A stretch of 64,000 nt of DNA. Source: Thermodesulfobium acidiphilum (GTDB taxonomy: Bacteria; Thermodesulfobiota; Thermodesulfobiia; Thermodesulfobiales; Thermodesulfobiaceae). Position numbers and translations under genes: made by a program. Shown here piece by piece: positions 6,490 through 52,004 of the stretch. Position 1 is the stretch's first letter, and every line of letters begins with the position of its first letter. The notes beneath the pieces were generated by a model, which was given only the letters and a program-made list of their open reading frames with translations, was not told where the DNA came from and did not search any database. The stretch spans positions 124,001 to 188,000 of the forward strand of contig NZ_CP020921.1 in the NCBI RefSeq assembly GCF_003057965.1, written 5' to 3'.

Positions 6490-8097
6490 TTAAAACTTTA
6501 CGTCCATCTGGATGTAGTATCTTTGATCCTTGTCAATCTGATCTGGGTTAAAGGTATAGTAATAGCCGTTAATGGTGTTATATGGCTTCTTGCCCTTCCA
6601 GTAGTCATAGTTAAGGGTAAGAGATGCGTTCTTTGCGACCGGGAGCGTGTAGTATACGTTGTAGTAGTCCTTATACTCTGTGGAACCCATTGTGTTAAGT
6701 ATGAATGGGTTAAACCACTTGTTGTCGCCAAACCAGAAGTCTCCTGTAAGTGCGCCAACTGGAAGAGGAATGGTAGCTCCAACTCTCCATGCGCCGCCAT
6801 TTAAAGAATGGGTGCCACTAAGATCTGGTGCACCAGTAGCTCCAACTCCTGGCATATCTGTAGATGTGCCATTGTAACCTGCCCACATATCTACGTTGTA
6901 GATATTCCAATTACCTATGACTGCCCACCAATCATACTTGCCATAAATGCCGCTTGGTCCAGTTGTAACGTTATTATTATCGAGTGCGCCAAAATATGTT
7001 AGCTTGTCAGCATAACCATAGTCTGCTTCCAAACCAAAGTTATTAAAGAGCTTTGTCTTCAAATTTAGAACGTATACATCCTTGTCTTTGAAGCCATTTG
7101 CCTCTTGCGAAGAGGTAACCAAGCCTGCGTCAAAGAGCTTTACCCATGCTGCTGAAACTGATGTTGATGGAAGCATATTGCTAAGGTCAAATACTACAAG
7201 GCCGCCTTCTGTGCCTGTGTCCATAAACAAGTTGTTGTAATATGCTCCAGTATCCATGGTAGGAAGTCTGCCGAGAACGAATGTTACAGGATATGGGTTA
7301 AGAGTCCATGTGATGTAGGATCTCTCTACATAAAGAGTATTGCTATCATCATTGTAACCGGTAAGGGATGCATAAAGTGGGTTTGCATTGTTTCGTCCAT
7401 TGCTGTTTACTCCTGCATTCTTCTCCATAGTAAGTCTTGCATTGAAGCTGATGTTGTCAGCAACTGGCGCTGCAACGTTTAGTCTGATTCTGTAACGCAT
7501 AAAGGTATCGTTCTTTTGATCTGCTGGTGCGGGATACTGAGTGCTGATTGCTTCTCCATATACTCCAGGTGCGTAAGTATAAGTATTACCATTCAAAGTC
7601 GCTGTTCCACCACCTGAAAACAATGGCGCAACTATTGTTCCACCTGTAGGTAGTGCATAAAACGTTGCCTTTTCGCTTCCGAGTCTAAATCTTGCGTCTC
7701 CTGTGAAGTTCACAGTGTCAAGAGCTGCCTTTTTCTCGAGCGCTGCAACTCTGACGTTTAAAGATGCGAGTTCTGACTTAAACTCTTCTGCTAACTTCAT
7801 AAGCGTTGCGATGTCGTTAGCGTTAAGCTGGATCTTTTGATCCTGTGCGTTTTGACCCTTTTCATACATATCAAGCATTCTTGCAACTACCATTGCCATC
7901 TCATAACGGGTGGCAAGTCTGTCGCCTCTAAATGTTCCATCGCCATAACCAATGACCAATCCCTTTGCTGCTAAATCTTGCACTGCCTTGTATGCCCAAG
8001 AATTAGCTGGTACATCTGAGAATGGTCCTGCCATAGCGGGAACTGCAAGGGCAACGAGAAGAGATGCTACTACAAAAAACATAGCGAATTTTTTCAT
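6490..8097 (-). CDS. SLH-domain outer-membrane porin (OmpM-like)
   Basis: A 535-residue outer-membrane protein. A Sec signal peptide (residues 1-23, ending AMAG) is followed by one SLH domain (about 24-85: FSDVPANSWAYKAVQDL, YGDGTFRGDRLATRYEMA), a short coiled coil (about 88-130, ending SLNVRVAALEKKA) and a beta-barrel of alternating polar and aromatic strands that ends in Phe (QMDVKF), the usual outer-membrane insertion signal. This is the plan of proteins that tether the outer membrane to peptidoglycan in OmpM-type diderms. ATG 8097 follows AAAGGGGG. A consensus-like promoter, a ~235-base folded leader and a strong terminator suggest very high expression. Confidence 0.93.
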   Translation of the reverse strand: MKKFAMFFVVASLLVALAVPAMAGPFSDVPANSWAYKAVQDLAAKGLVIGYGDGTFRGDRLATRYEMAMVVARMLDMYEKGQNAQDQKIQLNANDIATLMKLAEEFKSELASLNVRVAALEKKAALDTVNFTGDARFRLGSEKATFYALPTGGTIVAPLFSGGGTATLNGNTYTYAPGVYGEAISTQYPAPADQKNDTFMRYRIRLNVAAPVADNISFNARLTMEKNAGVNSNGRNNANPLYASLTGYNDDSNTLYVERSYITWTLNPYPVTFVLGRLPTMDTGAYYNNLFMDTGTEGGLVVFDLSNMLPSTSVSAAWVKLFDAGLVTSSQEANGFKDKDVYVLNLKTKLFNNFGLEADYGYADKLTYFGALDNNNVTTGPSGIYGKYDWWAVIGNWNIYNVDMWAGYNGTSTDMPGVGATGAPDLSGTHSLNGGAWRVGATIPLPVGALTGDFWFGDNKWFNPFILNTMGSTEYKDYYNVYYTLPVAKNASLTLNYDYWKGKKPYNTINGYYYTFNPDQIDKDQRYYIQMDVKF

Positions 8098-8470: not shown

Positions 8471-8602
8471 ATGTCTAAAAATTACAAAGTAAAAGCTTTG
8501 AATTCTATAAAGATTGCTTCTAATGTTTTTCGTATAGCACTAGCTCTATTTTTTCTCTATATTATCTTTTCTCAAGGATCAAAAAAGCAACCTAACCGTT
8601 AA
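8471..8602 (+). CDS. Predicted 43-residue single-pass membrane microprotein
   Basis: An ORF of 43 codons reads MSKNYKVKALNSIKIASN, then a hydrophobic stretch (VFRIALALFFLYIIF, about residues 19-33), then a basic tail SQGSKKQPNR. The basic-hydrophobic-basic layout fits a small membrane protein. Support for expression is the perfect TGnTATAAT box six bases before the ATG, the same geometry as at phoB (50144-50156). There is no ribosome binding site, so it depends on leaderless translation. I recognise no family, and it could be chance. Confidence 0.45.
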   Translation: MSKNYKVKALNSIKIASNVFRIALALFFLYIIFSQGSKKQPNR

Positions 8603-8632
8603 CCTAATGTTAACACTTCAGTGTGTTATAAT
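8599..8632 (+). promoter_or_regulatory. Pho-box-like repeats plus extended -10 before the HNH gene
   Basis: TTAACC at 8599-8604 and TTAACA at 8610-8615 are direct repeats with an 11-bp period, the same unit and period as the four-repeat Pho box upstream of pstS (50835-50873). An extended -10, TGTTATAAT, follows at 8624-8632, and no -35 is visible. That is the expected layout for an activator-dependent promoter. The predicted RNA start is near 8639. Confidence 0.55.
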
Positions 8633-8688
8633 CATTAAAGCTGTATTAGAGTTACATTAGACTTTTAAACAACTTTAAGGGGTGAACA

Positions 8689-9222
8689 ATTTTCCTTACT
8701 AAAAAGGGGCTTTCTGATGAAAAGGTTTTGGTATTAAATTCTTCGTTTTATCCTCTAGGAGTTAGCTCCTGGAGGAAGGGGGTGTTACTTGTTTGGAAGA
8801 AAAAAGCAGAAGTTATCGAATACAATGGTCACTTTTTAAGAGAAGATATAAGGCTTCCATGTGTGATAAAGCTCGATAGAAATATATTTTTGCCGCACAA
8901 AGACGTAGCACTAACGAGAAGAAATATAATTGCAAGGGATCAAAATACGTGTCAATACTGTGGCAAAAAGTCCTCGAATCTTACAGTAGATCACGTAATA
9001 CCAAAATCTAGAGGAGGAGAACTTTCCTGGGAAAACGTAGTGGCTGCCTGTCAGGCATGTAATCTAAAAAAGGGTAACAGAACACCTGAAGAGGCTAATA
9101 TGAAGCTTCTAAGACCCCCAAAAAAGCCAAAAATTCCGTCAAATCTCCTTGATATTGTTAGATTTGCAAAAAGCCAGTATCATGAATGGATAAAATATAT
9201 ACCTAAGAAATATTTCTCATAG
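8689..9222 (+). CDS. HNH endonuclease family protein
   Basis: Small HNH nuclease of the COG1403 type. The family N-terminal motif (KVLVLNSSFYPLGVSSWRKG, then KAEVIE) precedes the zinc-bound HNH core: CQYCG, DHVIPKSRGG, ENVVAACQACNLKKGNRT, so two CxxC pairs, the catalytic DH and the N/H residues are all present. The start is unclear. The conserved VLVLN runs upstream of TTG 8728, and no standard start has a fitting ribosome binding site. ATT 8689 lies 6 bases after AAGGGG and would give 177 residues; 8728 would give 164. The cellular role of this family is not settled. Confidence 0.85.
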   Translation: MFLTKKGLSDEKVLVLNSSFYPLGVSSWRKGVLLVWKKKAEVIEYNGHFLREDIRLPCVIKLDRNIFLPHKDVALTRRNIIARDQNTCQYCGKKSSNLTVDHVIPKSRGGELSWENVVAACQACNLKKGNRTPEEANMKLLRPPKKPKIPSNLLDIVRFAKSQYHEWIKYIPKKYFS

Positions 9223-49225: not shown

Positions 49226-50131
49226 TTAAAACCTAAGTTCTACTCGTGCTCCCATTTCGTTTGAGAAGTGAATCAAAATGCCTGCCATTTTTGCAAGGCT
49301 TTTAATTATTGCAGTTCCTAGACCGATTCCTGAGCTATCCTGCCTATTTAGCTCCTTCATTTCTCCTTCTTTAAACCCAGGGCCACTATCCTCTATAACA
49401 AGAATATTTTCATAGAAGCTAATAAATATTGGTTCTTTCCCGTGAATTTTTGAATTTAGTAGTATATTTTTTGTTATAGTTTTAAGAATATACGGGTCTG
49501 TTTCAACAGTTTTGTCTCTTTCAATATTTATTTTTACATTTAAATGTGAATTTTTTAAAAAGGAATTTTTTAAAACTTCTTCAAGGAATAATAAGATATT
49601 AATTTTAGCTTTTTTTATATTTATTAGGCCTAGTTGAATTTTTGTTATTACTATAGCGTTATTTAATGCAAGATCAAGTCTTTTTATCTTATCTAACACC
49701 TTTTCTGAGAAAGCAGAATCTATATTGCCTGTAGCTTCTCCTGTTTCTATAATCGAACTAATGGCTGCAACTGGGGTTTTTAATTCATGAGAGATCTGAC
49801 CAAGAAGTCTTTTTTTTAGCTCTGACTCTTCTTTATTTTCTCCAGGCTTTAAGACTATGATTCTCAAATCCTGTGACGACTTTAAAATAAACGTATATTT
49901 TGTTAAATTCATGCCTAAAAATATCTCTTTTTCAAAGTCTTTTATTTTGTTATCCTTTAATATCTCGTGGGCTTCAGAGAACCTAAGTACTTCAAAATAA
50001 TATTTGCCTTCTAAATCTTTTATCCATGAAAATTCTTTGAATTTTTTATTGAAGTAGACAATCTGTCCTCTTTTGTCAATAATTAAAACAGGGTATTCAA
50101 TTAGTTCAATAACCTCTTTTAAAAGTTCCAT
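49226..50131 (-). CDS. phoR: Soluble PhoR-like sensor histidine kinase
   Basis: A 301-residue kinase: a PAS-like N-terminal domain (about 1-95: IEYPVLIIDKRGQIVYFNKKF), HisKA with phosphoacceptor LLGQISHELKTPVAAIS, then HATPase with N box (NILLNSKIHG), G1 (VIEDSGPGF) and G2 (SGIGLGTAI). Unlike most PhoR proteins it has no membrane helix, so it must sense a cytosolic cue or act through partners. It is divergent from phoB with only 24 bases between, so the pair is almost certainly cognate. Confidence 0.82.
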   Translation of the reverse strand: MELLKEVIELIEYPVLIIDKRGQIVYFNKKFKEFSWIKDLEGKYYFEVLRFSEAHEILKDNKIKDFEKEIFLGMNLTKYTFILKSSQDLRIIVLKPGENKEESELKKRLLGQISHELKTPVAAISSIIETGEATGNIDSAFSEKVLDKIKRLDLALNNAIVITKIQLGLINIKKAKINILLFLEEVLKNSFLKNSHLNVKINIERDKTVETDPYILKTITKNILLNSKIHGKEPIFISFYENILVIEDSGPGFKEGEMKELNRQDSSGIGLGTAIIKSLAKMAGILIHFSNEMGARVELRF

Positions 50132-50155: not shown

Positions 50156-50830
50156 ATGGACAATAAAATTCTTTTAGTTGAAGACGATATTGATATATCA
50201 AATAATATAAAGACTTTCTTAAGCCTAAACGGCTTTAAAGTTGTTCAAGCTTTTAGTGCAGGCGATACATTTGACATTTTTGATGAAAAAGAAATTTCTC
50301 TTATAATACTTGACTTGATGCTTCCAGATATGTTTGGTTCTGAAATACTTAAAGTTTTAAGGGCAAGGGGGATAAAAATTCCTATTTTGGTCCTTTCGGC
50401 GCTTTCAGAAGAACACAATAAAGTTAGTTTATTAGAGTTGGGGGCTGATGATTATCTGACGAAGCCTTTTGGAATGAAAGAGTTACTTGCAAGGATAAAG
50501 AGTCTTATCAGAAGAAAAGATGGCTTTGGTTTGGTAGCTGAGAAGGGACCATTCAGAGTAGACAGGGAGAAGAGTCAGATTCATTTCCACGGAAATTTGA
50601 TGAATTTAACTGCTACTGAGTATAAATTGTTGCTCTTTCTTTTTGAAAATAGTGGGAGGACTTTCTCCAGAGAAAAGCTTATAGATAAGGTTTGGGGAGA
50701 AGAATATTTTGTTGAAGCGAGGATGGTAGACGTATATATTAGAAGGTTGCGGGAAAAAATAGAGGCCGATCCTTCAAATCCACAAATATTAAAAACGAGG
50801 CGGGGATTTGGGTATGTTCTTGAGATTTAG
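50156..50830 (+). CDS. phoB: PhoB/PhoP-type response regulator
   Basis: OmpR-family regulator, 224 residues. The receiver has acidic pocket EDD (9-11), phosphoacceptor Asp53 in IILDLMLPD, and Lys in LTKPFG. The C-terminal winged helix matches PhoB (NLTATEYKLLLFLFENSGRTFSREKL; VDVYIRRLREKIEADPSNPQILKTRRGFGY). The gene lies just before pstS and its repeats, which supports control of phosphate starvation genes. Confidence 0.93.
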   Translation: MDNKILLVEDDIDISNNIKTFLSLNGFKVVQAFSAGDTFDIFDEKEISLIILDLMLPDMFGSEILKVLRARGIKIPILVLSALSEEHNKVSLLELGADDYLTKPFGMKELLARIKSLIRRKDGFGLVAEKGPFRVDREKSQIHFHGNLMNLTATEYKLLLFLFENSGRTFSREKLIDKVWGEEYFVEARMVDVYIRRLREKIEADPSNPQILKTRRGFGYVLEI

Positions 50831-50834
50831 CCAT

Positions 50835-50888
50835 TTAACTATAAATTAACTTAAAATTAACGCCCTATTAACATTTTGACTGTATATT
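50835..50888 (+). promoter_or_regulatory. Pho box with four direct repeats, and -10 of pstS
   Basis: TTAACT (50835), TTAACT (50846), TTAACG (50857) and TTAACA (50868) repeat with an exact 11-bp period, the classic arrangement for dimers of PhoB/PhoP. The -10 TATATT follows at 50883-50888, preceded by TG. No -35 is needed in this layout. Confidence 0.88.
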
Positions 50889-50921: not shown

Positions 50922-52004
50922 ATGAAAAGAATTTTGCTTTCTTTATTAGGCGTTTTCTTACTTGTTGCTACAGTTTTTTATGTGGCTGGATGCTCTAGTT
51001 CCAATGCTCCTCAGTCGGCTTCCCAGGTAAAGCAGCTTACTGGTGCTGGTTCTACTTTTGTTTATCCTCTGTTTTCAAAGATGTTTGAGGAATATAAGAA
51101 AGAAAAAGGAGTAGAAGTTAATTATCAGTCAATAGGATCGGGAGGCGGTATTAACGCTCTTAAAGATGGTACTACTGACTTTTCTGCAAGCGATGCCTAT
51201 ATGTCAGAAAAAGAAATGCAGGCTGTGCCAGGTGGGGTGGTTACTATTGCAGATGCTGCGGGCGCTGTGTCAATCTCATACAACATTCCAGGAGTCAATG
51301 ACCTTGTTTTAGACGGCAAGGCTATAGCTGATATATATCTTGGAAAGATTAAGGATTGGAATGACCCATATCTTAAAAAGCTTAACCCAGGCGTAAATCT
51401 TCCAGCCAAACCTATAGTGGTAGCCCACAGATCCGATGGTTCTGGAACGACATTCATTTTTACCCATTATCTTTCTCTTATAAGCCCTGACTGGAAGGAT
51501 ACAGTTGGTGCTGGAACCTCAGTTAAATGGCCAGTAGGCCTTGGTGGAAAAGGCAGTGAGGGCGTTACTGCTATTGTTAAACAGAATCCTTATTCAATAG
51601 GATATGTAGAACTAACCTATGCGCTTCAAAATAATATTACTACTGCAAAGGTAAAGAATAAATCAGGCAACATAATTGCTCCTACCCTCGAGAGTACAAA
51701 AAAGGCATTCGAAGGAGTAAAATTGCCTTCTGATATGAGGGCTCTTGTCCTTGATACTTCAAATCCTGAAGGCTATCCTATAACTGGATTTACTTTCATA
51801 CTCTTACACAAAGAAATGAATTACAAGGGCAATACGCTGGCAAGGGCGAAGGCAGTGCTTAATCTGGTAAAGTGGATTATTACTGATGGGCAAAAGTATT
51901 GTGAACCTCTTGATTATGTTCAGCTTCCAAAGGAAGCGGTTGATATAAATATGAAGAATTTAGAGTCAATTACCTGGGATGGGAAGCCAATTCTTACAAA
52001 GTAA
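50922..52004 (+). CDS. pstS: Phosphate-binding lipoprotein PstS
   Basis: Solute-binding protein of the Pst importer, 360 residues. A lipoprotein signal with lipobox VAGC (Cys near residue 24) leads to the binding domain with TGAGSTFVYPL, GSGGGINAL, DFSASDAYM and HRSDGSGTTFIFT, all phosphate-site motifs. AGGAGG precedes the ATG. It is followed by a strong terminator. pstC, pstA and pstB do not follow it, so the rest of the transporter must lie elsewhere. Confidence 0.95.
   Translation: MKRILLSLLGVFLLVATVFYVAGCSSSNAPQSASQVKQLTGAGSTFVYPLFSKMFEEYKKEKGVEVNYQSIGSGGGINALKDGTTDFSASDAYMSEKEMQAVPGGVVTIADAAGAVSISYNIPGVNDLVLDGKAIADIYLGKIKDWNDPYLKKLNPGVNLPAKPIVVAHRSDGSGTTFIFTHYLSLISPDWKDTVGAGTSVKWPVGLGGKGSEGVTAIVKQNPYSIGYVELTYALQNNITTAKVKNKSGNIIAPTLESTKKAFEGVKLPSDMRALVLDTSNPEGYPITGFTFILLHKEMNYKGNTLARAKAVLNLVKWIITDGQKYCEPLDYVQLPKEAVDINMKNLESITWDGKPILTK

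Follow-up and report, generated by a model that had tools for sequence, protein, structure and literature searches.

In the deep-branching genus Thermodesulfobium, the gene for a small HNH nuclease is probably a member of the PhoB (phosphate-starvation) regulon. We base this on a two-unit Pho box that is placed before an extended -10 element, is conserved among the species of the genus, and is shared with genes of phosphate metabolism. The window, by which we mean the whole stretch of 64,000 nucleotides that was analysed, belongs to the genome of T. acidiphilum, a single contig of 1.77 Mb in which genome-wide counts were made by pattern searches. The comparison set consisted of four genomes of the genus, one per species (the window's species and three others); the 40 relatives listed included no other genus of the same family, order, class or phylum. 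With no earlier description found in the searched library, the gene would be a newly predicted member of a known regulon. The promoter and the gene comprise the following features.

8599..8604, + strand: Pho-box unit 1, TTAACC (TTAAC identical in four of four species)
8610..8615, + strand: Pho-box unit 2, TTAACA (11-bp period after unit 1; identical in four of four species)
8624..8632, + strand: extended -10 (TGnTATAAT), TGTTATAAT (TG[TC]TATAAT in four of four species)
8701..8709, + strand: Shine-Dalgarno-like sequence AAAAAGGGG, hyperconserved
8717..8719, + strand: ATG at the start position of the orthologues, shifted by one base from the HNH reading frame in four of four species
8728..9222, + strand: PLMP-HNH nuclease ORF (mechanical start TTG at 8728; frame open back to 8686; models HNH_5 and HNH)
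8719..8907, + strand: PLMP-like N-terminal domain (closest in fold to the N-terminal PLMP domains of IscB/IsrB)
8950..9108, + strand: HNH domain (without variation across the aligned family: D-H, two Asn, four zinc-ligand-like Cys)

A reading of this DNA from sequence alone had described TTAACC and TTAACA at an 11-bp spacing in front of an extended -10 box, and the coordinates bear it out: TTAACC-N5-TTAACA (8599-8615) is followed, across a gap of 11 bp from unit 2, by TGTTATAAT, upstream of the HNH ORF ending at 9222. No -35 hexamer is present at the expected position of this promoter (8604-8609).

Downstream of the promoter, the start of the gene is itself unusual. Many orthologues begin M-x-x-V-LVLN, their ATG preceding the L of LVLN by 12 nt. 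Across the four species of the genus this distance is 11 nt, the ATG being well placed behind a fine Shine-Dalgarno sequence, and none of the four has an in-frame ATG near the start. The nine codons spanning the Shine-Dalgarno sequence and the ATG (8701-8727) are almost unchanged (8/9 identical, versus 45/138 elsewhere in the gene), and at the nucleotide level this stretch is the most conserved of the gene, with none of 156 windows as high. As read from these comparisons, selection here is evidently keeping something besides the amino acids. Possible explanations at this position are recoding, initiation at a non-AUG codon, and control at the RNA level; candidate in-frame non-AUG starts include ATT or GTT at 8689, TTG at 8728, and a GTG in two of the species. 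A structured leader RNA or omega-RNA was considered and rejected, as the locus gave no convincing Rfam match, folding no better than that of shuffled sequences, and no covariation.

With its apparent start codon in the wrong frame, the gene has an uncertain protein output. It is possible, if doubtful, that the promoter is Pho-controlled but that the protein is made only through recoding or very weakly, a reading that is compatible with regulon membership. The conserved Shine-Dalgarno sequence with its ATG one base out of frame in every species points in this direction, as does the near identity of the surrounding codons, unequalled in the rest of the gene; no classical slippery heptamer was seen, however, and one of the in-frame non-AUG codons could still serve as the start.

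The bare repeat pair is not enriched. Allowing one mismatch, it matches 13 times in the window versus 10.3 expected, which is not significant, and the genome has 17 exact copies of TTAAC-N6-TTAAC, equal to the 17 of the reversed control; enrichment of the bare repeat was accordingly discarded as evidence. The pair gains significance once a -10 is required, and through its conservation. A promoter pattern defined as the repeat pair with TTAACA and a TANNNT box 8-11 bp downstream yielded five sites in the window's genome, at pstS, pstC, arsC, the HNH gene and the dnaA-dnaN gap, versus none in the control, and 21 matches versus 2 across the four genomes. In front of the HNH gene the box is found in all four species, at -129 or -118 from the aligned ORF position. 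All columns of the TTAAC units (10/10) and of the -10 (6/6) are invariant in the four-species alignment and the spacers vary, compared with 60 invariant columns among the other 101 in 8566-8682 (units and -10 excluded). Taken by themselves, the units show modest conservation (hypergeometric p ~0.01), because the four genomes yield only about three distinct sequences.

Two other reasons for this conservation were considered and set aside. A small ORF (8471-8602) of the window's species ends in a TAA that unit 1 overlaps. Two of the other species have an earlier stop in this ORF and nevertheless retain TTAAC, so that coding cannot explain the conservation of unit 1, and its retention merely as a stop codon is ruled out. 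A box serving the divergent S-layer gene was also rejected, since the window's species alone has the box in reverse-strand reading as well; in the three others the only possible reading is toward the HNH gene. An AT-rich upstream region might yield such a repeat pair by chance, with the HNH gene lying outside Pho control. Such a reading is consistent with the equal bare-pair counts and with the dnaA-dnaN site, where the whole promoter pattern occurs in the absence of a phosphate gene. This explanation is nevertheless unlikely given the invariance of the units and the -10 amid changing spacers and flanks, the excess over control once the -10 is included, and the persistence of unit 1 where it no longer lies within a stop codon.

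The small ORF, directly upstream of the HNH gene, encodes 43 amino acids with one likely membrane helix; it evolves as coding sequence (third positions vary most) and has two different end points in the genus. An S-layer/porin gene at 6490-8097 of the window (- strand) has a very similar counterpart about 12 kb away (L062:2997-4574, + strand), and the 5' regions of the two are nearly identical.

The same box stands in front of genes of phosphate uptake, and the presumed regulator is encoded beside one of them.

49226..50131, - strand: PhoR/PnpS-like histidine kinase, divergent from phoB
50156..50830, + strand: PhoB-type response regulator, the presumed activator (best NCBIfam model PhoB, 199 bits, with a curated cut-off of 296)
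50835..50873, + strand: four-unit Pho box of pstS, the reference box (TTAAC units, 11-bp period)
50922..52004, + strand: pstS (TIGR00975, 377 bits)

Here phoB adjoins pstS, just before it. We checked the region upstream of every gene in loci from the four genomes. Four units precede pstS in four of four species, with the period seen at the HNH gene; the unit and period shared by these two boxes had been pointed out from the sequence alone. The pstC gene (of pstCAB) has exactly two units in four of four species. The remark that just two units match well at the HNH gene was correct, and pstC, with a two-unit box of its own, answers the doubt so raised. Between box and -10 there are 9 bp at both pstS and pstC, versus 11 bp at the HNH gene. 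Boxes were also found, each in three of three genomes checked, before the gene for a 924-aa beta-propeller/phosphoesterase protein (L066:196-2970, - strand; four units, one of them TTTAC), before an arsenate reductase gene (arsC) located beside a phosphate:H+ symporter, and before the gene for a 123-aa orphan protein (L065:6765-7136, - strand; three to four units); in one sister species, a second phosphate:H+ symporter lies behind a box. Since the box-bearing genes, the orphan aside, are those expected under phosphate control, the TTAAC unit is very probably the PhoB box of this genus. In the window's genome, none of the followed sites away from phosphate genes (dnaA-dnaN, 120213, 510616) is shared with more than one other species.

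The 123-aa orphan, which has no match among Pfam or NCBIfam models, is a further candidate Pho gene. Amid DnaA-box-like sequences in the dnaA-dnaN gap (L061:1466-1498, - strand) stands a TTAAC repeat whose spacing is -10-like; only one other species has this site.

The label "HNH gene" is accurate as to the HNH domain but understates the protein, which also appears to have an IscB-type PLMP domain. Pfam models detect the HNH domains only; neither PLMP nor RuvC is detected by these sequence models. The AlphaFold model (mean pLDDT 92) has two parts. The C-terminal HNH is closest to small Cas9 proteins (9k32_A, Z 10.3, rmsd 2.1, 75 aligned), and the catalytic D-H and N residues, together with the four Cys, are invariant in the family alignment. 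Folded alone, the N-terminal 65 residues best match 9k2z_A (Z 8.7, rmsd 1.7, 53 aligned); the ten best rows of the structure search are all IscB/IsrB N-termini (Z 8.7 to 4.0), and the first unrelated row has a Z of 3.5. The Foldseek E-values are weak (0.03 at best), so the evidence for PLMP lies in the consistency of this ranking. Judged by the model, the N-terminus probably folds like the PLMP domain of IscB/IsrB, the N-terminal domain that contacts omega-RNA in IsrB and IscB (PMC9581776, PMC9640706).

The protein has PLMP in common with IscB and IsrB, and HNH in common with IscB and Cas9, but is without RuvC, bridge helix and TAM-interacting domain; the IscB model matches it at 57.8 bits, against a cut-off of 175 bits, over the HNH segment only, which leaves it outside IscB. 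PLMP and HNH without RuvC is the layout named IshB. Compared with IshB by description of the layout, the protein is similar in size and domain order, with a PLMP-like N-terminus, an IscB/Cas9-like HNH and no RuvC, and differs in being encoded by a single-copy chromosomal gene of wide phyletic spread; no adjoining mobile element was seen at the HNH locus. The predicted structure suggests an IshB-like (PLMP-HNH) layout, that of a proposed relative of the ancestors of Cas9; according to one paper, IscB may have acquired its HNH domain from IshB-like proteins (PMC12477157). The PLMP-HNH family is usually single-copy and is widespread across unrelated phyla. We know of no role assigned to stand-alone PLMP-HNH proteins, and the Pho box names a concrete condition, phosphate starvation, under which to seek their function. 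No secretion signal or signal peptide was recognised by eye in the protein, so it should act inside the cell; this, together with the lack of conserved defence-gene neighbours, makes extracellular DNA scavenging unlikely.

In the mechanism that we propose, phosphorylated PhoB would bind the two 11-bp direct repeats, which would stand in for the -35, and would recruit RNA polymerase, as at pstC, to the extended -10 lying 11 bp downstream. From its anatomy and company, the promoter would be activated when phosphate is scarce. The product would be a small, metal-dependent PLMP-HNH nuclease of the cytoplasm whose active-site residues are conserved; its most likely action is to nick or cleave DNA, or an RNA-DNA substrate, within the cell during starvation. 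Reports from other prokaryotes describe DNA as a phosphate store (PMC3986227, PMC10536925), and for this reason we favour, speculatively, phosphorus salvage from surplus or incoming DNA as the role of the nuclease; the regulatory proposal does not depend on this role. Membership in the regulon would in turn bear on the idea of DNA as a phosphate store (PMC3986227). A more specific proposal, in which the free-standing PLMP-HNH nuclease breaks down intracellular DNA for phosphorus under starvation and its output is further controlled by the out-of-frame start, with recoding or RNA-based control at the ribosome site as the means, is speculative and seems improbable.

The main rival to salvage is Pho-controlled defence against incoming phage or plasmid DNA in phosphate-starved cells; DNA use as a phosphorus source and host defence had both been suggested in the sequence-only reading. 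The HNH domain does weakly resemble defence nucleases (PtuB, Cas9), and the fold matches parts of IscB/Cas9. We nevertheless regard this role as improbable: there is no defence partner gene, the PADLOC matches span the HNH segment only, no neighbours are conserved beyond close lineages, and a usually single-copy gene conserved across unrelated phyla is unlike the patchy distribution of defence islands.

Direct repeats of about 11 bp typify the whole OmpR/PhoB family, and the repeats might bind another regulator of this family instead of PhoB, but this is very improbable, as the same units precede pstS, pstC, the phosphoesterase gene and the arsC beside a phosphate symporter, and phoB adjoins pstS. 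The arrangement is like that of the E. coli PhoB, the TTAACA-type Bacillus PhoP and the cyanobacterial SphR boxes, in which 11-bp repeats are likewise placed just upstream of the -10 and before pst genes. The SphR boxes, CTTAACCT, are very similar to those of this genus (PMC1906773). In contrast to the known Pho regulons, the target here is an HNH nuclease, and a literature search for a link between HNH nucleases and Pho control found no such paper in the searched library. Cyanobacteria have a known Pho nuclease, NucH, that is extracellular (PMC1906773); if our prediction is true, an intracellular nuclease joins a regulon whose better-known nucleases are extracellular.

That the gene may belong to the Pho regulon had first been suggested from the sequence-only reading; tested by conservation of the box at orthologues, the suggestion holds in four of four species in the genus and fails at the orthologues outside it. 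At about 76 loci with such orthologues there is no clear box, and the best scores in the 300 bp upstream are near background (9-of-10 matches in 2 loci versus 0.35 expected, 8-of-10 in 9 versus 6.4). None of the gene neighbours conserved at these orthologues points to phosphate; those that are conserved are lineage-specific only, chiefly an alanine-racemase-like gene (20 loci). The absence of a clear box at these loci indicates that the Pho link belongs to this genus, not to the nuclease family. In one sister genome (G001), the 32-base string TTAACGCCTTTTTTACATCATCATCATAATAT is present seven times (e.g., C1:530690, 628429, 742321), and its copies probably lie inside a repeated mobile element.
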